Source: a virus. Taken from it: DNA of 44,005 bases. The notes beneath the pieces were generated by a model. It ran no database searches and had not been told where the DNA came from. It saw nothing but the letters and a program-made list of their open reading frames with translations. Location of the stretch: IMG/VR virus record IMGVR_UViG_3300037247_000653, positions 1-44,005 of that record. One strand, 5' to 3'. Below, piece after piece: positions 11,097 through 28,445 of this stretch (within the stretch, counting starts at the first letter, position 1; the number at the start of each line of letters is the position of its first letter). A program made the translations under genes and the position numbers.

Positions 11097-11098
11097 AT

Positions 11099-11723: not shown

Positions 11724-11784
11724 ACCCGCCAGCGCTGGGCCTGGACAGCTGGGCCTAGTGCCGGAAGGTTTAGCAGCGGGGGAC

Positions 11785-11798
11785 TCTCCCCGCGTAGA
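11785..11798 (+). repeat. 14-bp dispersed element before gene at 11808
   Basis: Exact TCTCCCCGCGTAGA on the coding strand, followed by AAGGAGCGA and ATG. Here the Shine-Dalgarno lies after the element rather than inside it. Confidence 0.9.
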
Positions 11799-11807
11799 AA
11801 GGAGCGA

Positions 11808-13351: not shown

Positions 13352-13355
13352 TCAC

Positions 13356-13369
13356 TCTCCCCGCGTAGA
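13356..13369 (+). repeat. 14-bp dispersed element at gene start
   Basis: Exact TCTCCCCGCGTAGA. On the minus strand its GGGGAGA lies four bases before the GTG at 13351. Confidence 0.9.
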
Positions 13370-13373
13370 CGCA

Positions 13374-13598
13374 TCAGTTATCCTCTCCCCGTCCCCATGC
13401 TGGGTCTGGAATCTCGCTACTGTGAATGTGACAACAATCTGTCTCCCCGCGGAGACGCTCCACCTCCGCTATCAGGGTAGGGATGTCGCGAGTGTAGGCC
13501 ACCCTCCAGCCAAGGCTTACTGGCCCCTCCGTGTATGCCATCCTGTCGCCGCGCATCGCCGCTGCCTCCCTTGCCTTGATAGGCTCTAGGTCAAGCAT
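13374..13598 (-). CDS. Small phage protein (74 aa)
   Basis: ATG 13598 overlaps the preceding TAA (TAATG). DIPTLIAEVERLRGE matches a motif common near the C-terminus of small phage proteins of unknown role. A dispersed element (13442-13455) lies inside the gene and encodes RLRGE. The first seven codons are duplicated upstream at 14110-14131. Confidence 0.65.
   Translation of the reverse strand: MLDLEPIKAREAAAMRGDRMAYTEGPVSLGWRVAYTRDIPTLIAEVERLRGETDCCHIHSSEIPDPAWGRGEDN
13442..13455 (+). repeat. 14-bp dispersed element inside coding sequence
   Basis: TCTCCCCGCGGAGA within the 74-aa gene, 143-156 bases from its start, with no start codon nearby in a useful frame. Confidence 0.85.
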
Positions 13599-13602
13599 TA
13601 GT
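13581..13602. repeat. 22-bp direct repeat, copy 1
   Basis: Identical to 14110-14131. It covers the start of the 74-aa gene; the two copies flank the DUF1643 gene. Confidence 0.9.
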
Positions 13603-14092
13603 GGCCTCCAAGATAAGGGAAACGTGTATCACGATGCCCCCTCTGTCGATGTAGCGGGTGAAAGGGTTCCCCACCCTTTGTCTGCCCCAAACAGACGGGC
13701 TGCACACCCGCCTCTTGTAAGAGGCTGTATACTTCGCGCCCGCGATTGTGGTATGTACCATGGTTGCCCCAACCCACTAGCACCTCATTTGCCTTAGTTG
13801 CCAAGCGTGCAATCCAACAATCATTCTCCTCACCCACTGGGTCTATCGCTAAGCGCAGCACAGACGGGTAAGGCGTACGGTAGGCGAAGATGTTGACTAT
13901 TGTTAGACGCTGATAGCCCCAACGCTGGGCGTAAGTGCAGCAACGCCGCACAGTAGGATCATCTTGATCTGCATTAGCTGTACTTGGGTTCAGTAGGATG
14001 AAGAGAATTTCACCTTGGCCACCTAACCATGCACGCGTTAGCCTATAGCGATATAAACCATTTGGCGAAAATGACGCCGTCCCGTATGCCAT
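13598..14092 (-). CDS. DUF1643 family protein
   Basis: 164 residues from ATG 14092 (GGGGGTGAGTAGG upstream; a GTG three codons earlier is possible). Family signatures are clear: ILFILLNPSTAN, DDPTVRRCCTYAQRWGY, VNIFAYRTPYPS, DPVGEENDCW, VGWGNHG and GQTKGGEPFHPL. DUF1643 proteins occur in phages and bacteria and their reaction is not established. The gene sits between a 22-bp direct repeat and a shared 23-bp upstream junction, and reads as an inserted cassette. Confidence 0.9.
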   Translation of the reverse strand: MAYGTASFSPNGLYRYRLTRAWLGGQGEILFILLNPSTANADQDDPTVRRCCTYAQRWGYQRLTIVNIFAYRTPYPSVLRLAIDPVGEENDCWIARLATKANEVLVGWGNHGTYHNRGREVYSLLQEAGVQPVCLGQTKGGEPFHPLHRQRGHRDTRFPYLGGH

Positions 14093-14109
14093 CCTACTCA
14101 CCCCCCTCG

Positions 14110-14131
14110 AGGCTCTAGGTCAAGCATTAGT
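14110..14131. repeat. 22-bp direct repeat, copy 2
   Basis: Identical to 13581-13602. Here the duplicated start codon leads only to a 9-codon stub (MLDLEPRGG) and the repeat also encodes the last residues of the upstream protein. Confidence 0.9.
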
Positions 14132-14434
14132 CAGCCCAACATCCAATTCCTCATCACTCCAAAAGCCGATGGCTGCTGCCTCATCATGTTCTAGTACCCG
14201 CTCATCTCCCTCAACCTCCACAACCGTCCCTCTGCCACCAAAGCCGCGCTCCTTGATGTTGTTCTCAGGCGGGAGATCCCTAAATGCTTCTACTCGCGCA
14301 TCGGTATATACATCATGGAGAAACTCGCCGCCATACCTGTTCCAACCAATAGCCTTCGCCCGTCGGGCCGTCTTAGCAGCTACAGGAATACATATCATGC
14401 CCGGCTCGCCATCATGCACTCCATAGACTCGCAT
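14120..14434 (-). CDS. Hypothetical protein (104 aa)
   Basis: ATG 14434, one base after the previous TAG, with GGTGAGTAGG upstream. The longer frame to 14533 would overlap the upstream gene and is rejected. N-terminal alpha/beta part (GMICIPVAAKTARRAKAIGW), acidic C-terminus (EHDEAAAIGFWSDEELD). Unknown function. Confidence 0.65.
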   Translation of the reverse strand: MRVYGVHDGEPGMICIPVAAKTARRAKAIGWNRYGGEFLHDVYTDARVEAFRDLPPENNIKERGFGGRGTVVEVEGDERVLEHDEAAAIGFWSDEELDVGLTNA

Positions 14435-14435
14435 C

Positions 14436-14738
14436 CTACTCACCCCCTTCGAGGAGAGCGCGTGGTTCTGTGAATTGCTGCTTTTCGTAGGGGCACTTAT
14501 CCCACGTATGTTCTGCGTAACAAGTTTCCGCATGATACCGCTCCATCGCCACTCGCAGCGCCGCCCGCGTCACCTGTAGGGCGGTGAGCGCTTGCCGCGC
14601 TACCTCGACTAGGTATCCTTCGGCGTCACTTATCAATACCCTGTCATCGGCCCGCTGTTCTACAGCTATTGCCGCTGCCCGCGCTAGCGCATCCTCAATC
14701 TCCCGATCGGTTAGCGGTTTCTCCCCGCGTAGTGTCAT
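14436..14738 (-). CDS. Helical small protein (100 aa), paralogue of 22167-22493
   Basis: ATG 14738 overlaps the upstream stop, Shine-Dalgarno GAGGTG. The dispersed element follows the start codon and encodes LRGE. After it, TDREIEDALARA parallels NDEEIEKALERA of the gene at 22167-22493, which has the same element in the same place. The rest is helical (ALTALQVTRAALRVAMERY) with two Cys and His residues near the end. Confidence 0.7.
   Translation of the reverse strand: MTLRGEKPLTDREIEDALARAAAIAVEQRADDRVLISDAEGYLVEVARQALTALQVTRAALRVAMERYHAETCYAEHTWDKCPYEKQQFTEPRALLEGGE
14720..14733 (+). repeat. 14-bp dispersed element just inside gene start
   Basis: TCTCCCCGCGTAGT, located immediately downstream of ATG 14738 on the minus strand. 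Confidence 0.9.
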
Positions 14739-15043
14739 CGCAGCACCTCCTCGATCTCAGGCCAGTCAGCAGGAAACCATGTGAACACCCGCACACGATG
14801 ATCTCGACGAGCAGTCCGGCACATCTCATCCAGCACCTCACGCTGGGCGTCCGATTCCTTCTGCCCGGGCATCTTGAGCTCAGCGAAGATAATGTTAGGG
14901 GCCCGAACCAGCGTGAAGTCCGGCCATCCCTCGTCGGCGCCCGTCTCCCTCCATGTGGGATCTCGGTGAACCTGCCAGCCCGTCATCAGCGCCAACTCCC
15001 GCACGGCATCACTGAAGACAGCCTCGTTCGGGAAGTCGCTCAT
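14735..15043 (-). CDS. VRR-NUC-type nuclease
   Basis: 102 residues. GWPDFTLV (D42) and IIFAELK (E55-x-K57), followed by Q67 in a helix, form the PD-(D/E)XK catalytic pattern of the VRR-NUC family of structure-specific or restriction-like nucleases. The C-terminus (VRVFTWFPADWPEIEEVL) matches the usual final strand and helix of small phage members. The start overlaps the next upstream stop (ATGA). Probably acts in recombination or replication intermediate processing. Confidence 0.85.
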   Translation of the reverse strand: MSDFPNEAVFSDAVRELALMTGWQVHRDPTWRETGADEGWPDFTLVRAPNIIFAELKMPGQKESDAQREVLDEMCRTARRDHRVRVFTWFPADWPEIEEVLR

Positions 15044-15369
15044 CCTAGTCTCCTATACTCCACCCAATTTCCATCCTTCCATGCCAGCAACGGGATAGCC
15101 CTCATCCTCCGCGCATCCTCCACCAACCACTGTTCCCGCTGAGTACTCAGACTAGGCCGAATCCGGCACACAATGAGGTACATGTGCGACATTCTACCAT
15201 ACAGGGTGCAAAGGGCATCCTGGCACTCCTCAAAGCTCATCACGTCCCAAACCTCAGCCTGACGGAGACGCGCAGCCCTGCGACCAAACCGTTCTTGGTC
15301 CTTCACCACCTTAACTTCAAAGGCATCGCCGCGGCGGCGCCTAGAAGCTAGTTCGCTCTTCACGCTCAC
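15040..15369 (-). CDS. Possible degenerate resolvase-like protein (109 aa)
   Basis: GTG 15369 overlaps the previous TGA. The order RGDAFEVKVVKDQERFGRRA, then VWDVMSF, then YLIVCRIRP and RRMRAIPLLAWKDGNW resembles archaeal-type Hjc Holliday-junction resolvases (GxxFE, D, beta strand, helix, final strand), but the usual E-x-K of the third motif is not present. It could be a non-catalytic relative or a diverged nuclease. Its position beside the VRR-NUC gene supports DNA-repair association. Confidence 0.5.
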   Translation of the reverse strand: MSVKSELASRRRRGDAFEVKVVKDQERFGRRAARLRQAEVWDVMSFEECQDALCTLYGRMSHMYLIVCRIRPSLSTQREQWLVEDARRMRAIPLLAWKDGNWVEYRRLG

Positions 15370-15536
15370 AGCTTCACCCTGTTGCTCTGAAGGTGGCGCG
15401 AAACGAGCGGCGCCGTCGACACCGGCTCGTCACGGTAGCCGCAGGTGAGGCAGTGCAGCGGCTCGTTCGGCCAGTCCCGCACCAGGAGGATGTTGTGCCG
15501 GCCGTAGCGGTCTTCACATCGTGGACAGTAGATCAT
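15366..15536 (-). CDS. Zinc-ribbon protein (56 aa)
   Basis: ATG 15536 overlaps the upstream TGA (ATGA); stop 15366-15368. CPRCEDRYGRHN and CLTCGY form a two-knuckle zinc ribbon. One of many small zinc proteins in the early operon, fitting exactly between two genes. Confidence 0.7.
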   Translation of the reverse strand: MIYCPRCEDRYGRHNILLVRDWPNEPLHCLTCGYRDEPVSTAPLVSRHLQSNRVKL

Positions 15537-15976
15537 GGCACAGCCTTCTCCCGCTCAAAGATCACACGAACCGTTCTGCCTGGGAAATGGAGAGCAAAAG
15601 ACGCGTCCAATAAAACAGACCAGCCCATTTCACTGATCCTCACAAGGTTTGCTAACCCTTCTGTAGTGACCCCATAAGGCTCAGAGACGTAAAGGGTTCG
15701 CCCAGACTCTTTGTTTACTGCCCGATATGGATGGTCAAACCAACCACGTATAAGACTCTCGTCCCATCCGTAGCCACCCCAGCCCTCTTTCTTTGCAGCT
15801 GGACCTTGCTTCGTAGGGCTCCAAGTCCGCGTCTGCCAACCAGCCTTTTTCAGAACTTGGCTATTATCAACAAGTTCAAGTGTCGCCCTCAGCCGAGAAG
15901 AATCCACTTCATGTTCCGGCTTATTACCACAGAGGCCTTGATATGCACTTTCGTATGATTGTATCCCCGTTGCCAT
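15533..15976 (-). CDS. Hypothetical protein (147 aa)
   Basis: ATG 15976 with GAGGGAGTG before it; the frame extends to 16171 but that part crosses two micro-ORFs and the dispersed element. Starts MATGIQSYESAYQGLCGN; contains GRTLYVSEPYGVTTEGLANL and a basic C-terminus (FPGRTVRVIFEREKAV). No recognised family. Confidence 0.7.
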   Translation of the reverse strand: MATGIQSYESAYQGLCGNKPEHEVDSSRLRATLELVDNSQVLKKAGWQTRTWSPTKQGPAAKKEGWGGYGWDESLIRGWFDHPYRAVNKESGRTLYVSEPYGVTTEGLANLVRISEMGWSVLLDASFALHFPGRTVRVIFEREKAVP

Positions 15977-16011
15977 CACTCCCTCACTTTCTCCCCGCGT
16001 AGTCGGCTCAT
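15976..16011 (-). CDS. Possible 11-codon leader peptide
   Basis: A strong ribosome-binding site (AGGGGAGGAAACG) precedes ATG 16011. The frame encodes MSRLRGEKVRE and ends in TGATG with the next gene's start. The dispersed element lies inside it. A translated leader that couples to the downstream gene is plausible, but the frame is very short. Confidence 0.4.
   Translation of the reverse strand: MSRLRGEKVRE
15990..16003 (+). repeat. 14-bp dispersed element
   Basis: TCTCCCCGCGTAGT, 13 bases upstream of ATG 15976 and within the 11-codon leader frame. Confidence 0.9.
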
Positions 16012-16100
16012 CGTTTCCTCCCCTCGGGGATGCCGCACCGATCGCAGACGCCCAGGGTACAGTGCCGCCTGTGCCACCAGTCCAGGAGACGAGATAGCAC
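16008..16100 (-). CDS. 30-aa Cys-containing micropeptide
   Basis: GTG 16100 directly after the upstream stop, with GGAGGGGAAGTAG upstream; TGA at 16008-16010 overlaps the leader-peptide ATG. HCTLGVCDRCGIP suggests metal binding, with a basic tail. The strong Shine-Dalgarno and perfect fit in the gap support translation. Confidence 0.5.
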   Translation of the reverse strand: MLSRLLDWWHRRHCTLGVCDRCGIPEGRKR

Positions 16101-16535
16101 CTACTTCCCCTCCTTGAAGCGGTCACGAAACTCCTTGCAGGGCCATCGGTCGCACTCAAAACGAGTGACATTCTGAACCTCGAAGGTATGAGAGTTGTGT
16201 ATCCGGTGAACCATGTAGAGCCCCAGCCGCAGGGCGTCGGCTAGGTCACGCTGGAGAGCGTCCCTCTTTTCAACTACTCGTTGCCACTCGTTAGTAGCTG
16301 CCACCACTCCGTCTCCCAACCTCGCGTTCTCGGCCTCTAGGGCAGCGATGACGTTACAGGCCGAACACACAGAGCCGTGCATCTTCCTACTAAGCGCGTG
16401 GCCTTCTGGACAGTACCAAATGTCGGCCAACTGCCCCTCTAGGGTGGCGACGCGGTCGCGTAACTCATTGGCGCGAGAGATAGGTATTGACACAAAGCCT
16501 TCATCTGGACGACCTGTTCGTTGCTCACTAGCCAT
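16101..16535 (-). CDS. Coiled-coil protein with zinc knuckle (144 aa)
   Basis: ATG 16535 overlaps the initiator gene stop (TGATG). Helical with heptad-like leucines (ANELRDRVATLEGQLADI), then CPEGHALSRKMHGSVCSAC as a zinc knuckle, then another coiled coil. Unknown role; encoded next to the replication initiator. Confidence 0.7.
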   Translation of the reverse strand: MASEQRTGRPDEGFVSIPISRANELRDRVATLEGQLADIWYCPEGHALSRKMHGSVCSACNVIAALEAENARLGDGVVAATNEWQRVVEKRDALQRDLADALRLGLYMVHRIHNSHTFEVQNVTRFECDRWPCKEFRDRFKEGK

Positions 16536-17338
16536 CACTTCCCCTCCTTCTCCTGCCGCGCCTTCTCCGCATTGTACCGACGTTCAGCCCAAGCTACCTC
16601 TGGGTCCGGCACTACACCCTCGATCTGCCAGTCGGTCGCCTTCACCCGCTCCAGAACCCGCCAAGCGTACTTCAAAGCCCTCGCATCCGCCTCCGCCATC
16701 TCCTCGAAGATGAACTTCGCTATCGCCGCCCCCTTTTCTCCTGGAGGTAGTTCCCGAGCCATCTTTTCCAGGGACCGTACCTGCATCGTCGTAGGAGACT
16801 TATCAGAAACTTCTTCATGTAGTTTCAGCAGCAGCGGCAGGTGGGCTGCTCCTGCTGCTTCAGCAGTGGGAGCAGGGGGAGACGGGTTACGGGAAGTACG
16901 GGATACGGGATACGGGATACGGGGCTTGGATTCTGCTTGAGCAGATTCCTCTTCTGCTGGGCTGTCTGCTTGAGCAGAATCCCGTTTTGCTTGGGCCGTT
17001 GCTAGGCCACCTGCTTGACCTGCGCGGCGTTTTGCTTCATGCTTGGCCTCACGCTTCGCTAGGATTTCGGCAGCAGAAGGGTTGTAATCAGCCCAGTCAT
17101 GCACCTCGTACCCCTGCCCGTTGGCAATCCACCTCCCGGCCTCAGCTAACTCCTTCACCGCAGAGGACCGCGCCCCGGACAGCGCCCTGCTCATCCTTAC
17201 TCCGACGGGGCTGAGATGGCCGTCAGTAAGCTGCTTGGCGCAGTAGGTTAGCCCCGCAAGGTACAGCAGTTGGGCGTCCTTGCTGAGATCCGCTATCACC
17301 GGGTTCTCGAAGAAGCCGTCATCTAGCTTAACCCACAT
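16535..17338 (-). CDS. Replication initiator-like protein (DnaD/phage replisome-organizer type)
   Basis: 267 residues from ATG 17338, which overlaps the upstream TGA; a longer frame to 17620 would cover the HTH gene and is rejected. The N-terminus (WVKLDDGFFENPVIADLSKDAQLLYLAGLTYCAKQLTDGHL) is typical of phage winged-helix replication organisers. A low-complexity linker (about 110-150) rich in Ala, Glu, Ser and Pro contains DNA repeats (see separate entries), and the C-terminal half is helical. I infer origin recognition and helicase loading; no helicase or polymerase is encoded here, so the host enzymes would be recruited. Confidence 0.75.
   Translation of the reverse strand: MWVKLDDGFFENPVIADLSKDAQLLYLAGLTYCAKQLTDGHLSPVGVRMSRALSGARSSAVKELAEAGRWIANGQGYEVHDWADYNPSAAEILAKREAKHEAKRRAGQAGGLATAQAKRDSAQADSPAEEESAQAESKPRIPYPVSRTSRNPSPPAPTAEAAGAAHLPLLLKLHEEVSDKSPTTMQVRSLEKMARELPPGEKGAAIAKFIFEEMAEADARALKYAWRVLERVKATDWQIEGVVPDPEVAWAERRYNAEKARQEKEGK
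16852..16978. repeat. Iteron-like repeats inside initiator gene (candidate origin)
   Basis: TCTGCTTGAGCAGA occurs at 16932-16945 and 16965-16978, 33 bp apart. A related palindrome CTGCTGCTTCAGCAG lies at 16852-16866, and further TGCTTG/TGCTTC steps run to about 17040. Phage origins are often located inside the initiator gene as iterons, so this is an origin candidate. Codon repetition (SAQAES) is the simpler explanation. Confidence 0.45.
16897..16924. repeat. Four tandem 7-bp repeats
   Basis: TACGGGA three times then TACGGGG, within the initiator linker. Seven is not a multiple of three, so copy-number change would shift the frame. Confidence 0.85.
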
Positions 17339-17592
17339 CACACGCGCATCTTCCACTCGTGCTGGCAGCCGTTGCGCACGTTGTAGTCGCCGCCACACTT
17401 CCGGCATTTGAACCAGCTGGCCGGCACGTAGACGTACTGGGGACCGGCGCAGCGGCAGTCTTCGTTCAGGTGGTAACGAACTGTTCTCTGGGTCACCCCC
17501 AACCTCTGGGCAATCTGCGCGACTTTCCAGTCGGCATGGAAGAGCTCCACCATGCCTGCATGAACCGCCCTGCTTTCCTCTGTCGCTATCAC
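17338..17592 (-). CDS. HTH plus zinc-ribbon DNA-binding protein (84 aa)
   Basis: GTG 17592 behind GAGAGGCGTC. Residues 23-43 (KVAQIAQRLGVTQRTVRYHLNE) form a clear helix-turn-helix. C63, C66, C76 and H78 (CRKCGGDYNVRNGCQH) form a zinc site, with another CRC at 46-48. A transcription regulator or replication accessory is likely; it is immediately upstream of and translationally coupled to the replication initiator. Confidence 0.75.
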   Translation of the reverse strand: MIATEESRAVHAGMVELFHADWKVAQIAQRLGVTQRTVRYHLNEDCRCAGPQYVYVPASWFKCRKCGGDYNVRNGCQHEWKMRV

Positions 17593-17642
17593 GACGCCTC
17601 TCTCTCCAAGAGTCGGTCACCCACGATGGCGAGCCGTGTCAT
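17589..17642 (-). CDS. 17-aa micropeptide between RNA ligase and HTH genes
   Basis: ATG 17642 overlaps the ligase stop (ATGA), and TGA at 17589-17591 overlaps the next GTG. It encodes MTRLAIVGDRLLEREAS; the EAS-stop end is shared with three other genes as part of a repeated junction module. Likely a coupling leader; translation not proven. Confidence 0.4.
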   Translation of the reverse strand: MTRLAIVGDRLLEREAS

Positions 17643-18319
17643 GGCTTTGCGTCCTTGAAGTCTTTAGTCTTCAGCTTCCACATCAGTCTCTGCCCGTGCT
17701 TGGTGTAGAGGGGGATAGGAGTTCGAACGACAACACCCTCTGCGGGAGAATCCGCAGTGCCCTCTAAAGCTGCTGTCACTGAACCTTGGCCTCCCTTAAC
17801 GGCATCAACGATACTTTGAGTAGTCCACAACTCGCCAAAGTCGGGCACCGTAGCGACCCCCACCCTCTCGGCCACGTCTAGTACGTCATCCCACCCTAGC
17901 CATGTGGTGTCGCTGACCATCACGTCGAACAGCCTGAAGCTGACATCGTTGTTCTTCCTATAGTTCCCGCCCTTCTGAATACCTGCGCCGTACCCTTCGC
18001 CGTACAAGGTTATAGGGTAGATGTCATCGCCTCTGCTAAGCGGGACGGACAGCATCTTGTCCAAGGTGAAGATGTCATATAGTATCTCGATTATGGTGCC
18101 GGGGAATTGCGTGTTGTCTCCCCGTCCGTAAAACTTCACTGCCCACTCGCCATCTTCTTGCTCAAGGGACACACGGATATTCATGCCGTTGATCTTCTCG
18201 GTGACTAGCCACCCGTCCACGTAGGTGAACTCGGGTAGGCGAAAACTAGTGCAGTCTACGCCGAAATCTTCCCTCCGGGTAAACAGCGTCTCAATCTTCG
18301 GATACTTCTGCACGCTCAT
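17639..18319 (-). CDS. RNA ligase (Rnl2-like nucleotidyltransferase)
   Basis: 226 residues from ATG 18319 (GTAGAAGGAGGGTGTGAA upstream). Motif I is EKINGMN (K42 is the lysine that would be adenylated), with YGRGDN at 64-69, motif III LYGEGYGAG (E108), motif IV EGVVVRT (194-200) and motif V KLKTKDF (215-221). This covers the adenylyltransferase core of Rnl2-type ligases; the C-terminal domain of T4 Rnl2 is missing, as in many short phage members. It could repair nicked RNA, such as host-cleaved tRNA. Confidence 0.85.
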   Translation of the reverse strand: MSVQKYPKIETLFTRREDFGVDCTSFRLPEFTYVDGWLVTEKINGMNIRVSLEQEDGEWAVKFYGRGDNTQFPGTIIEILYDIFTLDKMLSVPLSRGDDIYPITLYGEGYGAGIQKGGNYRKNNDVSFRLFDVMVSDTTWLGWDDVLDVAERVGVATVPDFGELWTTQSIVDAVKGGQGSVTAALEGTADSPAEGVVVRTPIPLYTKHGQRLMWKLKTKDFKDAKP

Positions 18320-18332
18320 TTCACACCCTCCT

Positions 18333-18346
18333 TCTACTCGCGGAGA
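18333..18346 (-). repeat. Variant of dispersed element (TCTCC-GCGA-GTAGA)
   Basis: The arms match the family but the central four bases differ. It lies 13 bases upstream of the ligase ATG with the Shine-Dalgarno following, as at 11785-11798, and encodes the end of the upstream gene. Confidence 0.6.
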
Positions 18347-18969
18347 ATGGCCACTTGATCTCCGACCTTTGCCAGCCACGCCATGCCGGCCGCCTCGTCC
18401 TCGAAGTAGACGTCGACCCAGGGTGTAAGGACTGAGGTGTCCGTCGGCCTCGTGATCTGCCTGTCAGGCCCCGCACCTCGATCCAGGCAAGTATACGTTC
18501 TGCCAGTGGGATCACCAACAAGGCGGAAGCGAACCCCAATATCAAGGCCCCACCAGCAAGCAGCAGCACCCTCATAAGGGTAAATACCTGAGTACATCGG
18601 GTTGCCAGTTGGGAGATAGAAGGTAACAACTACTTGTACCTCATGACGTGGCGCAGTCTCTCTGCGAAGTTGCGGGTCGAGATTACTTCCTGCTTGAAGT
18701 CCTGACATGTCTGGCAGTGGCGTCGGTGCCACCAATTCAGGAGGCCACGCAAAAGGCTCATCTAGCTCTCCTTCTTTGCTATCCGCTCGCAGCGTTGGCA
18801 GATGGGCCACTGGGTAGCGCTGGAATATTCGCCAAACCGTGCTGGTAGGCCACACAGTGTTCGTGGAGGATGCCCCAAGATATGGCGTCTCCTGCCGCAT
18901 CCCGTTAGCACGTAAACCATCACTACCTCCTATGAGCGCCAAGGCCAGCAGCGCTATTGCTAGACGCAT
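18334..18969 (-). CDS. Secreted protein with 3D/barwin-like domain
   Basis: 211 residues with an N-terminal signal peptide (MRLAIALLALALIGGSDGL). After a Pro-rich linker, the last 110 residues (MYSGIYPYEGAAAC, IGVRFRLVGDPTGRTYTCLDRG, WVDVYFEDEAAGMAWLAKVG) follow the order of double-psi beta-barrel 3D domains: G-x-A-A-C, C-x-DRG, then a D-V-x-F strand. Such domains can cleave or bind peptidoglycan. It is encoded far from the lysis genes, in the early operon, so an early cell-envelope role is worth considering. Confidence 0.65.
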   Translation of the reverse strand: MRLAIALLALALIGGSDGLRANGMRQETPYLGASSTNTVWPTSTVWRIFQRYPVAHLPTLRADSKEGELDEPFAWPPELVAPTPLPDMSGLQAGSNLDPQLRRETAPRHEVQVVVTFYLPTGNPMYSGIYPYEGAAACWWGLDIGVRFRLVGDPTGRTYTCLDRGAGPDRQITRPTDTSVLTPWVDVYFEDEAAGMAWLAKVGDQVAILRE

Positions 18970-19173
18970 TCACGACGCCTCCGCCGCGATTGCACAGCCT
19001 TCGCTGCAGTAGCCAACCAAGTCCCCGTCGACCAACTCGTCCATATGAATATGGGGAATGGTATCCATAAACCATTCGTGGCACTGATTGCATTGCCACC
19101 GGCTACTTAGGCTGTGCAACCCGTGTCTATAGCAGTCGTCGTCACACTCTTCCTTGGTCATGATCAGCTTCAC
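18970..19173 (-). CDS. Zinc-binding small protein (67 aa)
   Basis: GTG 19173 four bases after GGAGG (GGAGGCGTC); an ATG four codons later lacks suitable spacing. CNQCHEWFMD, H-x-H and CSEGC build a zinc site. It ends in AEAS-stop within a repeated junction sequence. Confidence 0.65.
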   Translation of the reverse strand: MKLIMTKEECDDDCYRHGLHSLSSRWQCNQCHEWFMDTIPHIHMDELVDGDLVGYCSEGCAIAAEAS

Positions 19174-19370
19174 GACGCCTCCCTGAACTCGTGCCAGCCG
19201 TTCCGTTCGGCATGCTCCGCTACCAGATCCCAGAACACCCGAGCAGCGACACGAACGTCCCCCGCTATCTCAATCCGGCGGTCACGGTGAAAGGTCACTA
19301 TAGGCTTGCCGTTGACCGCGAAGACCAGAGGGCCGGGCTCAATATTGCTTAGCAAATAGTCAGGATGCAT
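19170..19370 (-). CDS. Hypothetical protein (66 aa)
   Basis: ATG 19370 behind GGAGGCGTCGTGA. Beta-strand N-terminus (GPLVFAVNGKPIVTFHRDRRIEI) and C-terminal helix (ARVFWDLVAEHAERNGW). Unknown; ends REAS-stop in the repeated junction module. Confidence 0.65.
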   Translation of the reverse strand: MHPDYLLSNIEPGPLVFAVNGKPIVTFHRDRRIEIAGDVRVAARVFWDLVAEHAERNGWHEFREAS

Positions 19371-20327
19371 TCACGACGCCTCCCTCTCCTGGAGCCAGTC
19401 AAGGAAGCTAACGACTTGGGGTAACTCGCCCCAATGCGCTTGCCCCGCTATCTCCCGCAGTTCCGCCACGCTGTACCGCTTGGCCCGTGGCTCCGGTGGC
19501 CCCTTCACGATGTCCCGGAGCTCTCTCGTGGTCTTCCCCGTCTCCTGGGCATCGGTGAGTAGGGCAGCACGCTTCGGTTCAGGTAGGGCGGCCACTTCTC
19601 GGTGGTGAGTCCAAGACAGCACCTCTACGCGGGTAGAGGGCGGGAACTGCCGCGCTACCCAGGCGTAGTTGGCTAGTCTCTCCTGGCTCAGCCCCAGGGA
19701 ATCGTAGTGCTGGGATGCCTTTTCATTGAACAGAGTTTCGCCGGCGATAACCCAGTCGCCTATCGCCCAGGGAAGCCGCTGTACCGCCTGAGCCAACGCC
19801 TCGCCCTGCTGTACCCACGCATCCCACGTTAGACCAGCCCCCTCCCCTACCGAGGCCGTAGCCTCTCCCTGCTGGTCAATCTTGGGCGTGGGCGACCTAG
19901 TATCTCCCGCAGAAGGCATCACCTCCGTTCCTTGGGTGGACTCCCTAGCGGGACGGTCGAGGGCCATGCTGCTCGCGCCACGCTGGTCGTCTATTCGATT
20001 GTGCTCGACCGTCCCGCTAGAGGGTTCACCGTAGTCCACTATCCATTCGATCTTGCCGTTGCCCGCGTCACGCCAGTAGTACCGGACGCCACTCTCCTCG
20101 CGTAGTCCGTCCTTCCAGCCGCCCGTCGTGACTTGGTCATGGTGGGTGTGACACAGCAAGATGACATTCTTCTTGTCGTCCCGCCGCTTCTTGCTGCCGC
20201 CCATCTTGCGCGGTTCAACGTGGTGGTGCTCGGTTGCCGGCTGAAAACACACGATGCAGACGTGCTCGTGCGGCCGACGCTCAGGGCAGAAGCGCGAACG
20301 GCACAGCGAGGTGGAGGTGACGGTCAC
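19371..20327 (-). CDS. HNH endonuclease domain fused to a DNA-binding-type C-terminal domain
   Basis: 318 residues from GTG 20327 (overlaps previous stop). The HNH part: C24-x-x-C27, HHH at 34-36, RKMGG at 40-44, N54 and LCHTHH at 58-63. A disordered Ser/Thr-rich linker (about 105-160) follows. Residues about 165-280 (AIGDWVIAGETLF, GLSQERLANYAWVARQFP, LSWTHHREVAALP, ARELRDIV-type end) match a domain I know from phage and plasmid proteins that resembles ParB/KorB-like helical modules. The fusion suggests site-directed nicking or a homing-type nuclease with its own DNA reader. Confidence 0.75.
   Translation of the reverse strand: MTVTSTSLCRSRFCPERRPHEHVCIVCFQPATEHHHVEPRKMGGSKKRRDDKKNVILLCHTHHDQVTTGGWKDGLREESGVRYYWRDAGNGKIEWIVDYGEPSSGTVEHNRIDDQRGASSMALDRPARESTQGTEVMPSAGDTRSPTPKIDQQGEATASVGEGAGLTWDAWVQQGEALAQAVQRLPWAIGDWVIAGETLFNEKASQHYDSLGLSQERLANYAWVARQFPPSTRVEVLSWTHHREVAALPEPKRAALLTDAQETGKTTRELRDIVKGPPEPRAKRYSVAELREIAGQAHWGELPQVVSFLDWLQEREAS
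19624..19637 (+). repeat. Variant of dispersed element (TCTAC-GCGG-GTAGA)
   Basis: A perfect inverted repeat extended to 7-bp arms (CCTCTAC/GTAGAGG), inside the HNH fusion gene. Confidence 0.5.
20093..20106 (+). repeat. Variant of dispersed element (TCTCC-TCGC-GTAGT)
   Basis: One centre base and the last base differ from consensus; inside the HNH fusion gene, encoding LREES. Confidence 0.5.
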
Positions 20328-21079
20328 CTAGCCCCCGCCTTCTGGGCGAGCTCCCCCCTCATGGCGTCCACTACAACCTGTAGCGGCACCTTCCCTGAAA
20401 TTGCCCTCACCTCGGCGTAGTTCTTCAGCGCCTTCAGCTCTGGCGGAACCCCGAATAGCCGGTGAACCATAGCCCTGTCCAGCCCCAGCTCGTTAGCCTC
20501 CACCCATAGGCCAGACCAGTCCGCGGCGCCATCCCCTGAAGGCACGGCCTCAGCCTTTGGGGTAGCTCTCGTCTGGCGCGGCTTCGGCTGGGGTGAAGCA
20601 GGCGCATCCTCTTTGGGCATCTCCTCTGCGGGCGTGGGCTCGAAGCCCGACAGGTGCATGATGAATCCCAGGGGCATCCTCAACGCCTTGGAGCCTGCCC
20701 GGGTCTGCGCCATAGAGCGGATGGCGTAGTCGTCGGCCTTGGCCCATCGCGTCTCGTCTCGCGTACACTCAGCCTCTGCCGCTCCGACAACAGCGCCGCC
20801 CAAGGTCCGGGCTTCAACGCGGGCCTCCCAGCCGCCCTCAATGGCCCGTGTCCAGTCTGTAATCGGGAACACCCCCACCAGTGCGCCGAGGGTTGCCCAC
20901 CCCTCGTAGAGGACGTGGCGCTTGCCATTGATGTTGATGTAGAGTTTCCGTTGTTCGATAACCGGCGCCAGGGCGGTTGCGATCGCCGTGGCCTGCGCCA
21001 CCTTCTCCGCTGGCGAGCCCACGAGGAGGGCCGGTACGCTCTCCTCGCGTAGCACTACGTCGGTTCCTTCTTGGGTCAT
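20324..21079 (-). CDS. Conserved phage DNA-metabolism-type protein (251 aa)
   Basis: ATG 21079 behind GAGGTGCGTGC. The core (ININGKRHVLYEGWATLGALVGVFP, VGAAEAECTRDE, DDYAIRSMAQTRAGSKALRMPLGFIMHLSGFEPTPAEEMP, each read in separate blocks) belongs to a family found in many phages and often placed with recombination genes. I suspect a single-strand annealing or recombination function but cannot prove it. The C-terminal 60 residues after a Pro/Lys linker form a separate helical module. Confidence 0.7.
   Translation of the reverse strand: MTQEGTDVVLREESVPALLVGSPAEKVAQATAIATALAPVIEQRKLYININGKRHVLYEGWATLGALVGVFPITDWTRAIEGGWEARVEARTLGGAVVGAAEAECTRDETRWAKADDYAIRSMAQTRAGSKALRMPLGFIMHLSGFEPTPAEEMPKEDAPASPQPKPRQTRATPKAEAVPSGDGAADWSGLWVEANELGLDRAMVHRLFGVPPELKALKNYAEVRAISGKVPLQVVVDAMRGELAQKAGAR
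21040..21053 (+). repeat. Variant of dispersed element (TCTCC-TCGC-GTAGC)
   Basis: Near the 5' end of the 251-aa gene, 26-39 bases after its start; encodes LREES. Confidence 0.5.
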
Positions 21080-21336
21080 GCACGCACCTCGTTCCTTGCC
21101 CGCATATCTAGGGCGTTACGGACAGCCTCTTCTATGGCTTTGTTACATTCAGGACAGCGGTGCGGACTTGGGGGAAATAGGCTGCTTCCTATAGTTAACA
21201 CATTGGACCCGGCCCTCCCCACATATTCGTCAGCAGGGCGCGGGCCACTCCACCCGGGAGGAAGGCTAAGGTCGTGCCACACTTCCTCCTTCGGGCAGTT
21301 GTCGCAAAGGAATGTCAGCTTGACGTCTATACTCAT
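21076..21336 (-). CDS. Zinc-binding protein (86 aa)
   Basis: ATG 21336 overlaps the previous stop, with GAGAAGGTGGACGC upstream. LTFLCDNCPKEE and HRCPECNKAIEEA provide two CxxC pairs about 45 residues apart, a zinc ribbon with a long insert. C-terminal helix. Unknown target. Confidence 0.7.
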   Translation of the reverse strand: MSIDVKLTFLCDNCPKEEVWHDLSLPPGWSGPRPADEYVGRAGSNVLTIGSSLFPPSPHRCPECNKAIEEAVRNALDMRARNEVRA

Positions 21337-21761
21337 GCGTCCACCTTCTCTTTCTTGCGCTCCAGCGTCAGCTTGGGGCGCTGCCGCTCAGTGGTCCGCG
21401 CCCCGGTGATAATCTCCCCGACGCGCCCGCCCAGCTTCGCCAGTTCGTTCAGTTCCTTCTGATCCCAGCGCGGGGGCGGTGCCTTGGGCTGCACACGTAC
21501 CTTCCTCCACTGCTCCTGCGTTACCAGTTCTTCGAGCAGCAGCATGTGGGCATCCTCGATCGTGTGAACCATGACGCCCAGCGCCAGCTTCCCGCTCCAG
21601 TGCTCCTCGTCTAGGTGGGTGGCGCCGCGTGCCTCCATGCGGTTCACCAGCTCCCACTCGGCCTTGCCAGCCATTTCCAGTAGCTTTTGCCCTTCGGCCT
21701 TCATCCCCACGGCCATCTCCGCTAGGGCGTCGTCGCTGTACTCCATCAGTTCGGGATTCAT
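21333..21761 (-). CDS. Helical protein (142 aa)
   Basis: ATG 21761 overlaps the previous stop. The longer frame to 21869 would run across the upstream gene. Long acidic/amphipathic helices (AEGQKLLEMAGKAEWELVNRM, then LLLEELVTQEQWRKV) with a basic end (RPKLTLERKKEKVDA). Function unknown. It shares an 18-bp 3' end plus next start with the upstream gene. Confidence 0.65.
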   Translation of the reverse strand: MNPELMEYSDDALAEMAVGMKAEGQKLLEMAGKAEWELVNRMEARGATHLDEEHWSGKLALGVMVHTIEDAHMLLLEELVTQEQWRKVRVQPKAPPPRWDQKELNELAKLGGRVGEIITGARTTERQRPKLTLERKKEKVDA

Positions 21762-22093
21762 GCGTCCACCTTCTCGCTGAAGTCCTTGATGCGCTTTTCT
21801 AGCCATTCGCCTACCACTGGCCTTAGCTCGGCCTTGACATGGAGTGCTTCTTCCTGCAGGGTCCGCCATTCATCCTCGCCCGGGGCATCCCCCGCTGCCG
21901 CACGGCCACTGAGGCTTAATTTTCTAGATTCCAGAGCAAGAACGTGAGCGTACTGTGGCGCGTGTTCAACAAACTCTCCCCAGTCGCGCCGACATTCAGT
22001 GCAGAGGCGATATGGGAAAATCCCTAAAAGCAAAACTGTTTCAGGGTAACGACCCTCGTTCCAAGAGTCAGACCTACATGCTTCACAGTGCAT
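21758..22093 (-). CDS. Zinc-knuckle plus helical protein (111 aa)
   Basis: ATG 22093 behind TAGGAGGAGAAACC. CEAC at 3-6 and CTEC near 31-34 form a zinc ribbon; the remainder is helical and ends EKVDA-stop like its downstream neighbour. Unknown function. Confidence 0.7.
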   Translation of the reverse strand: MHCEACRSDSWNEGRYPETVLLLGIFPYRLCTECRRDWGEFVEHAPQYAHVLALESRKLSLSGRAAAGDAPGEDEWRTLQEEALHVKAELRPVVGEWLEKRIKDFSEKVDA

Positions 22094-22104
22094 GGTTTCT
22101 CCTC

Positions 22105-22170
22105 CTACGCTAAGAACATAACGGCTATCACGAAGCCAATGACGGTGAGGGCCCAGGCAGCGGGGGTCAC
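22105..22170 (-). CDS. 21-aa single-pass membrane micropeptide
   Basis: GTG 22170 with GGAG seven bases upstream and a GTGA overlap with the previous stop; TAG at 22105-22107. The peptide MTPAAWALTVIGFVIAVMFLA is one hydrophobic helix. It fills exactly the space between two genes, and its stop lies just before the next Shine-Dalgarno. Confidence 0.5.
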   Translation of the reverse strand: MTPAAWALTVIGFVIAVMFLA

Positions 22171-22493
22171 GGGGAATCTCCGAGGGCGGCGGTGGCCTTA
22201 ACTATTGCGGGATGCAGCACCCTCAGCGCTCCCCTGCGTGATCGCCCCTTCGGGCGAAAGTGGGCCAAACTCCCCGCCCAGACCATCGCCTCCCTCGCTT
22301 CCCGCAGCGCCGCCCGTGTCGCCCGTAGGGCGCGGTATGCCTGTGGTGCATCGACGCTGACAACATCGAATGGTAGGAAGCGGGCGCTGACATGGAGGTT
22401 TGCTATAGCCAACTGACTCTCCGCCTTTTTTGCCCGCTCTAGGGCCTTCTCAATTTCCTCGTCGTTCATCCCTTCGTCTCCCCGCGTAGTCAT
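22167..22493 (-). CDS. Helical small protein (108 aa), paralogue of 14436-14738
   Basis: ATG 22493 (GAGGTG upstream, ATGA overlap); an ATG at 22469 preceded by GGGGAG is an alternative start. The dispersed element lies between the two. NDEEIEKALERAKKAE parallels the 14436-14738 protein, as does ALRATRAALREAREAM. Unknown function. Confidence 0.7.
   Translation of the reverse strand: MTTRGDEGMNDEEIEKALERAKKAESQLAIANLHVSARFLPFDVVSVDAPQAYRALRATRAALREAREAMVWAGSLAHFRPKGRSRRGALRVLHPAIVKATAALGDSP
22477..22490 (+). repeat. 14-bp dispersed element between two start codons
   Basis: TCTCCCCGCGTAGT. On the minus strand it follows ATG 22493 and precedes ATG 22469 by seven bases. Confidence 0.9.
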
Positions 22494-22975
22494 GGCAGCA
22501 CCTCTATCGCCGCCTGCGTGGCCTGCCTTACTAGCCCGTCAATCTCGTTGCGGACGTAGGCTTCGTCCTTGTAGCTATCGCTAGAGTGATGAAGGGAGGA
22601 CAAGCCCGGCACTGAATCGCCACTGTGGGCGCAGTCAAAGCCGATCCACCACAGACCAAGCGCGGTATCGTGGGGGAATGCATCCTCTCGGCCGGTGGTC
22701 TCCTGCGCCGGCAGAGCATCGTACTCCTCCTGGCTCCACTTGTCCTCGAGGTTCGACATTAGATATTCCCTTCGCTGGCGACTGATCCCTATGTGGGCTT
22801 TCTCGGGGCCACAAAATGTCAGACCGCCGTGGACTTCGGCATCAATGTCGTCGTACCACTTGCCGTGCCAGGGATGAGCAGGCGGTAGGCCAATGTATCC
22901 GCAGAGGTGGCCCATATCCTGCTTCCAGATGCTGCACGCTATATCGCCAATGACGTAATACGCAATCTCGCTCAT
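22490..22975 (-). CDS. Conserved phage protein (161 aa)
   Basis: ATG 22975 overlaps the previous stop. Sequence blocks CGYIGLPPAHPWHGK, DDIDAEVHGGLTFCG and LGLWWIGFDCAHSGD belong to a phage/prophage family whose pattern (HGGLT, WWxGFDCAHxGD) I recognise, although no function is known to me. The invariant His/Asp/Cys residues could form a metal or active site. Confidence 0.75.
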   Translation of the reverse strand: MSEIAYYVIGDIACSIWKQDMGHLCGYIGLPPAHPWHGKWYDDIDAEVHGGLTFCGPEKAHIGISRQRREYLMSNLEDKWSQEEYDALPAQETTGREDAFPHDTALGLWWIGFDCAHSGDSVPGLSSLHHSSDSYKDEAYVRNEIDGLVRQATQAAIEVLP

Positions 22976-23184
22976 CGGTGTGGTCCTCCGTAGGTTCCGC
23001 CACCAAGAGGCTGCTCATCCCAGGGTAGGGGCGGCACATACACCAGCTTCGGCTTCGGACAGTTGGGGCAGAGAGCGAGGACGTGCGTCGCCCACGCCTT
23101 ATCACGCTTGGAGAAGTTTGCTACCGGCTTCCCGACTGCGTTGACCATGTGGCCGCACGTTTCGTAGAACGCGAGGTCGCTCAT
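22972..23184 (-). CDS. Small Cys-containing protein (70 aa)
   Basis: ATG 23184 (GAGGTGGCGCG upstream) overlaps the previous TGA; the frame open to 23220 is not needed. CGHMVN near the start and CPNCPKPK at about 40 suggest zinc binding; Pro/Gly-rich tail. Unknown. Confidence 0.65.
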   Translation of the reverse strand: MSDLAFYETCGHMVNAVGKPVANFSKRDKAWATHVLALCPNCPKPKLVYVPPLPWDEQPLGGGTYGGPHR

Positions 23185-23471
23185 CGCGCCACCTCGCAGG
23201 CACCTTTCCTCGCCCGGCACAACTCACAGGTGGGCGTCGCGCAGTACCGCCCCTGTTCCTTAGACGGAGCGCCATTGGAACACTTGCGTTCCCCGTCAGC
23301 GGCAAGGATGGCGAGGCGGGCTTCATCGAACTCGGAATTGTAGACGATATCGAATAGTTCAGCCTTCTTGATGAGCAGCCGAAGCGCGTCGTACAACGCT
23401 GGTGCCGCATCGTGGAGCGAGCAGTAGACGATGACCTGGCCATCTACAATGTGGCAACCGCAGTCGGTCAT
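23181..23471 (-). CDS. Zinc-binding protein with APxLxDALR motif (96 aa)
   Basis: ATG 23471. CGCH and YCSLH at the N-terminus, AAPALYDALRLL as in the AAPxLLEALE small phage proteins, then C-x-C-x-x-C clusters (CATPTCELCRARKGAC). A fusion of this common helical motif with zinc knuckles. Unknown function. Confidence 0.7.
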   Translation of the reverse strand: MTDCGCHIVDGQVIVYCSLHDAAPALYDALRLLIKKAELFDIVYNSEFDEARLAILAADGERKCSNGAPSKEQGRYCATPTCELCRARKGACEVAR

Positions 23472-23713
23472 GGCGACGCCTCGATTGGGTTCTCCATCAG
23501 GTACTCGCGCCAGAGGGGAACGAGTTCGGCGCGACCATCAGCCCGCTCTTCCTCGGTTGCCTGCTCGTCCACGGTATTCCAAAGAAGGTGGGATTCCTCT
23601 GGGAATTTGTGGGCAAACTCCATGCCGAGCATGAAACCCGCGCCGGCCTCAGCCGTTATGTTGTCGGGCATACCAGCCACAGACAGGAGTTGCATAACTC
23701 TGGCTACGCTCAC
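23468..23713 (-). CDS. Hypothetical protein (81 aa)
   Basis: GTG 23713 (AGAGGTGGCGTC upstream). Helical and acidic (NTVDEQATEEERADGRAELVPLW). Ends IEASP-stop, a near-match to the shared EAS junction. Unknown. Confidence 0.65.
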   Translation of the reverse strand: MSVARVMQLLSVAGMPDNITAEAGAGFMLGMEFAHKFPEESHLLWNTVDEQATEEERADGRAELVPLWREYLMENPIEASP

Positions 23714-23907
23714 GACGCCACCTCTCGGATCTGGTCGGCTAGCGGCCTACAGAGCAGGTCGCCCAGCGATTTCTCCCCGCGTAGTTCCAGCCACGGCGCT
23801 ACCTCAATGCGGCAGCGGCGATTAGGGCAGCGAGCCCGTACCCCCGCGCCACACTTTGGGCACGACACCGTGGTAGGATGGTTCTGGGATGGCGATGTCT
23901 TTGGCAT
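23710..23907 (-). CDS. Zinc-ribbon protein (65 aa)
   Basis: ATG 23907 behind AAAGGAGGAACG. CPKCGAGVRARCPNRRC is a compact zinc ribbon; LELRGEKSLGDLL is encoded across a dispersed element (23772-23785). Unknown. Confidence 0.7.
   Translation of the reverse strand: MPKTSPSQNHPTTVSCPKCGAGVRARCPNRRCRIEVAPWLELRGEKSLGDLLCRPLADQIREVAS
23772..23785 (+). repeat. 14-bp dispersed element inside coding sequence
   Basis: TCTCCCCGCGTAGT within the zinc-ribbon gene, encoding LRGE. Confidence 0.9.
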
Positions 23908-23920
23908 CGTTCCTCCTTTG

Positions 23921-23943
23921 GCCGAGGCCCAGTGAGCCTCGGC
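23921..23943 (-). terminator. Hairpin before zinc-ribbon gene
   Basis: On the minus strand GCCGAGGC, a 7-nt loop and GCCTCGGC, followed directly by CAAAGGAGGAACG and ATG. There is no T-run, so it is an attenuator, processing site or mRNA-stability hairpin rather than a standard terminator. Confidence 0.55.
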
Positions 23944-23952
23944 TATCTCTCG

Positions 23953-24195
23953 CTAGAGGGCACCTACGTGGTCCGCGATGTAGGTAGCCCGCATCAGTAA
24001 TGTTTCGGCCTCCGCCTCGCACTCCACTAGTGTGTATTCGCAGCGAGCTTCCGAAATCTGTTCTGCTTTAGCGTCATCATCTCCTGGAGAAATGCGCTCC
24101 AGTTGCTGGCGAGCCGCATTGAGCTTGGCATGCAACGCCGCAAGCCTATCCTGCATGGTCTCCACCTTCGGTTCTGTTGTCTGCCCCTCTGCCAT
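23953..24195 (-). CDS. Coiled-coil protein (80 aa)
   Basis: ATG 24195 behind AGAGGAGGAACG and 12 bases after a dispersed element. Heptad-rich (MQDRLAALHAKLNAARQQLERI) and acidic. Unknown function. Confidence 0.65.
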   Translation of the reverse strand: MAEGQTTEPKVETMQDRLAALHAKLNAARQQLERISPGDDDAKAEQISEARCEYTLVECEAEAETLLMRATYIADHVGAL

Positions 24196-24207
24196 CGTTC
24201 CTCCTCT

Positions 24208-24221
24208 TCTCCCCGCGGAGA
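24208..24221 (+). repeat. 14-bp dispersed element (palindromic form)
   Basis: TCTCCCCGCGGAGA in the 34-nt gap between two genes, upstream of a separate strong Shine-Dalgarno. Confidence 0.9.
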
Positions 24222-24229: not shown

Positions 24230-24532
24230 CTATCTCTCTACCAACCGCCAGACCTGTATTCGCCGAGCGTGACCTTCCGGACGACGGGTGTGCACGAACT
24301 CCCCCGTGGGGACGAACTGGGACGAGCGTAGGATCGCGCCCCAGATGTTGACGTGGGCCTCAAGCGGTCTGGTGAGACGCGCTTGCAAGTCATCTGTGGT
24401 GACGGTCCCACGCTCCAGGCAGATGAGGCGGGCCAGCATGCGGGCCCGCGCCAGGAACCCCGAGTGGCGTTCCAGCGAGGCGAGCCCCGCGTCGCGGCGG
24501 GTACGGCCCAGGTCGAACATCGTCGCCTGCAT
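24230..24532 (-). CDS. Small winged-helix-type phage protein (100 aa)
   Basis: ATG 24532 overlaps the previous TGA; GAGAGGAT upstream. RRDAGLASLERHSGFLARARMLA, TVTTDDLQARL and NIWGAILRSSQFVPTG follow a family of small phage early proteins with a winged-helix fold ending in a basic W-x-L strand. DNA binding is likely; exact role unknown. Confidence 0.7.
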   Translation of the reverse strand: MQATMFDLGRTRRDAGLASLERHSGFLARARMLARLICLERGTVTTDDLQARLTRPLEAHVNIWGAILRSSQFVPTGEFVHTRRPEGHARRIQVWRLVER

Positions 24533-24714
24533 CACGCCATCCTCTCCGGCGCAGGCGCAGACTCTTGACCGTCAGGCGTCAATAGACCTCGGCGCCGCAT
24601 TTCGGTTTCCAGCAGGATGGCACCGAAGTTACTCTTGGTACGCCGCTCCTTCTTGGCCGCAGCTACCAGCGCGTCTACCACCCCGTCCCTCAGCCAGATG
24701 CCTAACACCTTCAT
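24532..24714 (-). CDS. Ribbon-helix-helix DNA-binding protein, candidate phage repressor
   Basis: 60 residues. MKVLGIWLRDGVVDALVAAAKK, ERRTKSNFGAILLETEMRRRG gives the strand, helix A, turn (KSNFG), helix B order of Arc/CopG/MetJ regulators, which bind short repeated operator sites as dimers. It is the first gene after the strongest promoter in the window and its transcript would be almost leaderless. I infer an early regulator; it is the best candidate for the protein that reads the dispersed 14-bp element, but nothing in the sequence proves that. Confidence 0.7.
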   Translation of the reverse strand: MKVLGIWLRDGVVDALVAAAKKERRTKSNFGAILLETEMRRRGLLTPDGQESAPAPERMA

Positions 24715-24723
24715 CGTGGTGCT

Positions 24724-24752
24724 AGAATATACCTGTCCTTAAAGTATGTCAA
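24724..24752 (-). promoter_or_regulatory. Strong leftward early promoter
   Basis: Perfect -35 TTGACA (24752-24747), 17-bp spacer, -10 TATTCT (24729-24724). The expected start near 24717 leaves about three bases before ATG 24714, and no Shine-Dalgarno exists, so the first gene is probably read from a leaderless transcript. Confidence 0.8.
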
Positions 24753-24950
24753 GTGGTTTAGTCGGGAGAGTTGTGAAGATTGATCCCTATTTTCAGAGGC
24801 ATTTTCTACGAGTTGATACAGCTGAGAGGGTGGGGCATCTGGGGGGTGTGACGATACGAGGGCTACGCTATCGTGGGGGTGATGCTGGCTACATAGCAGA
24901 AGGGTGCCCTCCTGGGCACCCCTCGCGCCAGTACATGAACCTAGACGCTC
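24753..24950. other. Intergenic spacer between lysis and early blocks
   Basis: Roughly 200 bp without a convincing gene. It contains a hairpin near 24902-24921 and the upstream flank of the early promoter. A plus-strand frame through it lacks a ribosome-binding site. Confidence 0.6.
24902..24921 (-). terminator. Terminator at end of the late/lysis transcript
   Basis: GGGTGCCC, loop AGGA, GGGCACCC, then TTCT on the minus strand, about 30 bp after the stop of the last late gene. Strong stem, short T-run. Confidence 0.65.
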
Positions 24951-27326: not shown

Positions 27327-28445
27327 CTAGTTCACACTCCCTGTCACACCAATAGCTGTCTTCTCGCTGCCCGTGACGCCAACGGCTGTGTCATTGGCGC
27401 CGGTCACCCCGATTGCCGTATCGTCAGCACCCGTAACTCCGATGCCGGTGTCGTCTGAGGCCGTCACTGCTAGGACTATCGCTTCGCTACCTGTCACCCC
27501 AATCTGCTTGACGTTCCAGACTGGTATAAGCTCGCCAGTTGCGGTAGGTTGTGTCCCTGCCAGAGCTATTAGGTACTTGAGCGTGAGTACGCCCGTTGCG
27601 GTAGGCTGGTTTCCAGTCAGCGCTATCTTGTACAGAAGGCTGAGGGCAGCCGTGGAAGCGGGCTGCGAACCAGTGAGCGCTATCTTATATAGAAGGCTAA
27701 GTGCCCCGGTAGATGAGGGCTGGGCACCCGCCAGGGTACGGAAGAGAGACTGCTTGGCGCTGAGCGTGGCAGATGGTGCGGGCTCTGAGCCCGTGAGGGC
27801 AATCAGATACTTAATGGCCAGGGCACCAGTGGAGGCGGGCTGAGCCCCGGCGAGGGCAATGACGTCACCCGTGTCCGCCGCTATCGCCCCAGTTGAAGCA
27901 GGCTGAGCGCCGGCTAGCGCTATTAGATACTTGAGAGCGAGGGCTCCAGTGCTAGCAGGCTGACTACCAGCCAACGACCTACTAAGAGTCTGTTCTGCTG
28001 AGATCGCCCCAGTGCTAGCAGGTTGCGAACCAGCTAGGGCTACGGAGTATTTGACGGCCCCGAGCGCGCCCGTTGAGGCAGGCTGCGAACCCGCGAGGGA
28101 GATGCCATACTTCTGGGTAAGCGCCCCCACGCTTGCGGGTTGGGCACCAGCAAGAGCGATGTTGTACTTGGAGCTAATCACACCTGTGCTGGCGGGCTGG
28201 GCTCCTGTCTGTGTTCGCTTCAGGGTTTGCTTGGCAGCGATGGTGGCCGAGGAAGCAGGCTGATTTCCCGCCAGGACATAGCTGACACTAAGGGCTCCCG
28301 TGGAGGCAGGCTGGGCGCCGGCAAGAGCAACCTCTACGGCACCCACCTCCTTGTCCGCAGAGGAACGCAGGCGCAGGTCAGTATCAGGGGAGGTTTCCCC
28401 CTTGTCAGTATCTGACCGTAAAAATAGGTCTTCTTCTGTAGGCAT
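27327..28445 (-). CDS. Tandem-repeat virion protein (372 aa)
   Basis: A short charged N-terminus, then about fourteen repeats of 17-23 residues with core AGAQPASTGAL (residues 41-308), then six repeats of about 10 residues with core IGVTGSDDTA (314-372). Built for a repetitive beta fibre or decoration. Placed among fibre genes. No known family. Confidence 0.8.
   Translation of the reverse strand: MPTEEDLFLRSDTDKGETSPDTDLRLRSSADKEVGAVEVALAGAQPASTGALSVSYVLAGNQPASSATIAAKQTLKRTQTGAQPASTGVISSKYNIALAGAQPASVGALTQKYGISLAGSQPASTGALGAVKYSVALAGSQPASTGAISAEQTLSRSLAGSQPASTGALALKYLIALAGAQPASTGAIAADTGDVIALAGAQPASTGALAIKYLIALTGSEPAPSATLSAKQSLFRTLAGAQPSSTGALSLLYKIALTGSQPASTAALSLLYKIALTGNQPTATGVLTLKYLIALAGTQPTATGELIPVWNVKQIGVTGSEAIVLAVTASDDTGIGVTGADDTAIGVTGANDTAVGVTGSEKTAIGVTGSVN
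27330..28325. repeat. Coding tandem repeats (QPAS and GVTG types)
   Basis: The QPAS units occupy about 27522-28325 and the GVTG units about 27330-27506. Unit lengths vary and copies differ at many synonymous sites, so the array is old or under slippage and drift rather than freshly duplicated. Confidence 0.8.

Follow-up and report, generated by a model that had tools for sequence, protein, structure and literature searches.

This locus raises the question of how a small gene for an Arc-like ribbon-helix-helix (RHH) protein, located between the lysis and replication genes of a phage, might be expressed when its start codon is preceded by no Shine-Dalgarno (SD) sequence. The window, i.e., the whole stretch of DNA analyzed, comprises 44,005 bases; the virus record looks complete and has a direct terminal repeat of 127 nt, and the phage is unclassified. 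Nearly all genes of the window, as well as the promoter and the RHH gene considered here, are on the minus strand. An amidase/LysM gene lies 5′ of the promoter on the same strand, together with probable lysis genes that end at position 24951, and the RHH gene is followed, also on this strand, by small genes and then by an HNH gene, an RNA ligase gene, and the gene of a Rep replication initiator. The features of the junction are:

24900-24923, minus strand: strong 10-bp hairpin, AGGGGUGCCC-AGGA-GGGCACCCUU, past the lysis genes; terminator-like, without a U-run
24532-24714, minus strand: ORF of the 60-aa Arc-like RHH protein, ATG start without an SD
24230-24535, minus strand: second gene (101 aa) of what is presumed to be an operon; overlaps the stop codon of the RHH gene; no family match
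23953-24195, minus strand: third gene (80 aa), with a strong SD and a copy of a 14-bp element (24208-24221) ahead of it

The hairpin at 24900-24923 was absent from the list produced by the terminator scan. Judged by gene order, the promoter site is a late-to-early junction, and its location between the lysis and replication genes makes an early promoter plausible, a purely positional argument. Several other features of the gene map were recorded. Two small ORFs with AAGGAG (11808-12014 and 12353-12574) are on the plus strand, against the direction of nearly all genes, and have repeated flanks 542 nt apart (D13, D17). The RNA ligase (17639-18379, minus strand; PF09414, E = 3.8e-16) belongs to the early block and might serve RNA-repair counter-defence. 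Numerous degenerate repeats resembling LAGAQPASTGAL make up the ORF at 27327-28445 (minus strand).

The original prediction held that the RHH gene is driven by the best promoter in the window. Read on the minus strand from 24752 to 24701, the region is TTGACA TACTTTAAGGACAGGTA TATTCT AGCACCACG ATG AAGGTGTTAGG, with the following elements:

24747-24752, minus strand: −35 hexamer TTGACA, from the sequence and a weight matrix
24724-24729, minus strand: −10 hexamer TATTCT after a 17-nt spacer, from the sequence and a weight matrix
24731-24726, minus strand: alternative −10 hexamer TATATT after a 15-nt spacer, overlapping TATTCT; 11 of 12 bases matched, the best-scoring −10
24717, minus strand: predicted transcription start A24717, 7 nt past the −10, from the sequence and a spacing rule

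Consistent with that claim, TTGACA-17-TATTCT tops both strands of the whole window by weight matrix (13.26 bits versus 10.65 for the next site), the matrix being of the sigma-70 type and possibly not that of the host. The score is above chance, and the −35 and −10 hexamers lie within the 15 to 19 nt expected of a sigma-70-type promoter. The spacer of 17 nt is likewise as had been claimed, and 9 nt (AGCACCACG) separate the −10 from the ATG (24714). Sigma-70 promoters usually start 7 nt past the −10, which here would be A24717 and would give a 3-nt leader. With the TATATT/15 alternative, possible starts spread over about A24720 to A24714. Under either reading of the −10, transcription would start no more than approximately 6 nt from the ATG, with the commonest spacing pointing to A24717, so that the RHH mRNA probably has a leader of 0 to 6 nt, as predicted from the promoter position.

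How much weight the hexamers deserve depends on how they are counted. By a plain match count, 2 sites of the window match 10 or more of the 12 bases at a spacing of 16 to 18, versus 2.4 expected, and the hexamer match alone is thus not significant genome-wide. By weight matrix, shuffled whole windows contain on average 0.2 sites scoring as high. Given the local, AT-richer composition, approximately 0.01 such sites are expected on one strand of the 200-nt gap, and the expectation falls to about 3e-4 when a distance suited to the ATG is also required. It is the placement of the promoter, rather than the bare hexamer match, that carries the weight. The chance-level count also fits a different reading, in which there is no promoter here and transcription of the RHH gene begins further upstream, with translation proceeding either without an SD or from an internal start; however, both the weight-matrix score and the position would then be improbable coincidences.

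The choice of the start codon bears on the same alternative. The best anti-SD pairing at ATG 24714 involves AGGU approximately 17 to 20 nt upstream and reaches −3.3 kcal/mol, which is also the median at random positions; the absence of an SD noted in the original prediction is thus borne out. Its companion statement, that almost every other gene has an SD, was slightly too strong: of the 61 minus-strand genes chosen mechanically, 50 pair at −5 kcal/mol or better (versus 34% of random positions), but about ten other listed starts are weak, some of them because the listed start is probably wrong. The main threat to a leaderless reading is the GTG at codon 12, the sole alternative start with a usable SD (−6.1 kcal/mol), from which translation could proceed in the absence of a local promoter. 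Yet the homology to RHH proteins described below spans residues 4 to 47 and thus includes strand residues ahead of codon 12, so that a start at this codon would drop the beta strand of the homologous domain. Because the homology begins 5′ of GTG codon 12 and an in-frame TAA lies just 5′ of ATG 24714, the start has to be ATG1 or, less likely, GTG3, neither of which is preceded by an SD. Taken together, we consider a gene without its own promoter an unlikely reading. With ATG 24714 fixed by homology and a promoter 9 nt ahead of it, we infer, with good support, a leaderless start at this codon.

The start codon is also part of a predicted RNA hairpin, the letters of which form a dyad in the DNA:

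24701-24726, minus strand: 9-bp RNA hairpin, UCUAGCACC-ACGAUGAA-GGUGUUAGG, with the AUG inside an 8-nt loop; predicted fold
24725-24702, minus strand: DNA dyad, CTAGCACC-N8-GGTGTTAG, 7 of 8 pairs matched; same letters as the RNA hairpin

At −11.8 kcal/mol (z = −3.5, with no shuffle as stable), this hairpin ranks first in stability among 57 gene starts (p = 0.0055 by local shuffling). Its loop begins precisely at A24717, the predicted start, and RNA begun at the promoter would therefore be without the entire 5′ arm. This predicted arrangement, with the start codon in a loop that would be opened by the choice of promoter, is an unusual, new feature of the locus. It suggests an addition that is compatible with the main reading, namely that the AUG might be accessible only on RNA begun at the gene's own promoter: read-through RNA from the lysis operon would keep the whole 9-bp hairpin and, having no SD, could not be translated, so that the regulator would be made from its own promoter only. 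The upstream hairpin (24923-24900) has no U-run, which makes such read-through plausible, and the T4 genes e, soc, 49, and I-TevI provide a precedent (PMC3014915). However, the hairpin was spotted after the fact, folds of longer RNA around the RHH start are unexceptional (z from −1.25 to +0.24), and several non-start ATGs elsewhere in the window are held in more stable loops. For these reasons, we regard the gate as a lead, and such an origin-dependent start as a tentative possibility; the full combination, in which a leaderless early regulator is coupled to a gate of the T4 gene e type, with the promoter start at the first loop base and late read-through RNA silenced, appears improbable to us. 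As a DNA palindrome, the dyad is not significant (p = 0.44), and it was rejected as a repeated operator, occurring only once in the window.

The description of the product as an Arc/CopG-type protein is supported by homology. In ungapped alignments with Arc-like proteins of Rhizobium phages, the 60-aa protein scores 69 to 79 against three such proteins, with shuffle maxima of 53 to 58 in 20,000 shuffles (best score 79, versus 53 for the best of 20,000 shuffles). Among the 627 open frames of the window, it is the best match to these proteins, the other 626 reaching at most 40. None of the Pfam RHH models passed its cut-off for the 60-aa protein (RHH_5, E = 0.097); its Arc-like homologues match the RHH families TacA1, HicB, RHH_1, Arc, and NikA, mostly just below the cut-offs, with TacA1 as the best. 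Matches of the 60-aa protein to RxLR effectors and to tubulin chaperone models were dismissed as chance-level helix matches.

Structure prediction, proposed as a check, gave a divided answer. AlphaFold modeled the single sequence with helices at residues 3-23 and 30-41 and no strand, and a Foldseek search with this model returned no match. With two homologues, the model contains two short strand pieces (2-3 and 6-7) and two helices (10-22 and 27-41), with a pLDDT of 62, and nearly all of its PDB neighbors are RHH proteins at E of about 1, to which the two aligned homologues may have contributed. These neighbors include MazE, PutA, CopG, CopASO antitoxin, Arc, CdbA, AmrZ, ParG, RelB, and SvtR, as well as the TacA and VapB antitoxins. 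Homology together with this low-confidence fold, the neighbors of which are almost exclusively RHH proteins, indicates that the 60-aa protein is most likely a real RHH protein.

Whether it reads DNA is less clear. Polar residues on the DNA-facing strand are typical of DNA-binding RHH members, although they do not strictly define the fold. In Arc, these residues are Q, N, and R. The corresponding residues of RelB are S3, N5, and R7 (PMC2812701). Alignment with Arc and RelB would place V3, G5, and W7 at these positions of the 60-aa protein, which are thus not the polar residues expected; this unusual set argues against specific DNA binding and against a standard DNA reader. It would suit an RHH-fold adaptor or antitoxin instead of a DNA-binding regulator, as would the presence of MazE, TacA, and VapB antitoxins among the PDB neighbors and the top Pfam match of the relatives, TacA1. 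On the other hand, comparison with Pfam, PHROGs, and NCBIfam linked the adjacent 101-aa gene to no toxin family, so that, as far as these three collections show, the locus lacks the neighboring toxin gene that marks a type II toxin-antitoxin system. We rate an adaptor or antitoxin as rather unlikely, while the role of a DNA-binding immediate-early regulator is one that we only infer.

No close relatives of the 60-aa protein were found in viral contigs, phages, or plasmids, the Arc-like relatives being reached only through the weak Rhizobium-phage match, and no close phage records were found by DNA. The protein encoded at 20324-21079 (minus strand; phrog_19042) has relatives in 29 otherwise dissimilar viral contigs, with 46% to 76% identity over the core, but, apart from scattered single matches, the other genes of the window have no counterparts in these contigs, and the RHH gene has none at all. 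When 20 records of those relatives were searched, 4 contained RHH_1 genes, which were set aside because their coordinates do not suggest the same operon. A scan for the host genome yielded no matches other than short contigs from metagenome assemblies, which belong to mixed phyla. Read on the gene strand as TCTACGCGGGGAGA, a 14-bp element has 37 matches with up to 3 mismatches in the window versus 10.6 expected, some of them being the same place on both strands:

8806-24221: copies of the 14-bp element (e.g., at 11099, 13132, 13356, 14720, 15990, 22477, 23772, and 24208)
30386 and 35861: further copies

Many copies are at gene starts, where some provide GGGGAG as an SD and others lie within codons 2 to 6. 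The suggested link between the RHH gene and this element found no support: no copy is near the promoter, where the best match, 10 of 14, is at background level.

The reading that we favor, and consider reasonably probable as a whole, is that a host sigma-70-type promoter abuts the gene of an Arc-like RHH regulator, the first gene of an early operon, and gives rise to a leaderless mRNA. The promoter adjoining the ATG would yield an mRNA with a leader of 0 to 6 nt, most likely beginning ACG-AUG, which would be translated by the leaderless route. The RHH protein would most likely be a dimeric transcriptional regulator and probably an autorepressor, turning down its own early promoter as it accumulates, with the dyad over the −10/start region as a candidate operator. 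In a phage that is otherwise an orphan, the RHH gene offers a clean and easily tested leaderless candidate. Were the hairpin gate real, one reason for a leaderless start would be explained, translation occurring from the gene's own promoter only, and the early regulator would be kept silent during late read-through.

The closest comparison is with the Arc-like proteins of the Rhizobium phages RHph_Y3_1 and RHph_Y3_56_1 and of the IMG/VR loci L067 and L068, which align with the 60-aa protein without gaps over approximately 44 residues at 32% to 36% identity and, like it, carry RGLL past the second helix. The residues of their DNA-facing strand are A-G-R, as opposed to V-G-W here. A leader precedes the ATG of their genes and contains GGAG in 2 of 3 (RHph_Y3_1 and L068), unlike the RHH gene of this phage, which has no SD; the predicted leaderlessness is thus particular to this phage rather than a family trait. 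A near-palindrome lies just 5′ of the start of the Rhizobium-phage Arc-like genes and is a candidate operator there:

L063, 2930-2980; L067, 2515-2545; L068, 995-1025: near-palindrome TGTTTGCATGCTGCGAACA

RHH regulators are already known in phages, as exemplified by Arc. Like the P22 Arc repressor, the 60-aa protein is a small phage RHH protein of similar length and layout, but the two have no direct significant sequence match and differ in their operator/promoter context. Only a few leaderless mRNAs of phage regulators have been mapped. Among them are those of PY54 cI and cro and of lambda cI, in which a strong promoter likewise puts the start of the regulator mRNA at or next to the AUG; these regulators, however, come from different repressor families and have mapped starts, whereas the approximately 3-nt leader described here is only predicted (PMC4488713). 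In T4 gene e, the start site is covered by a fold of the longer early transcripts, and in e and soc the sequence for the 5′ arm of the hairpin lies at or upstream of the position where transcription from the promoter begins, so that only the longer RNA could fold, as would be the case here (PMC3014915). T4 gene e, however, is a late gene shielded from early RNA, whereas the RHH gene is the presumed first early gene, has no SD, and owes its hairpin to prediction from sequence. The arrangement of a promoter set against a regulator's ATG is thus already known from phage regulators, and the present locus is plausibly a new example of it and a new member of two known kinds, leaderless phage regulators and phage RHH proteins.
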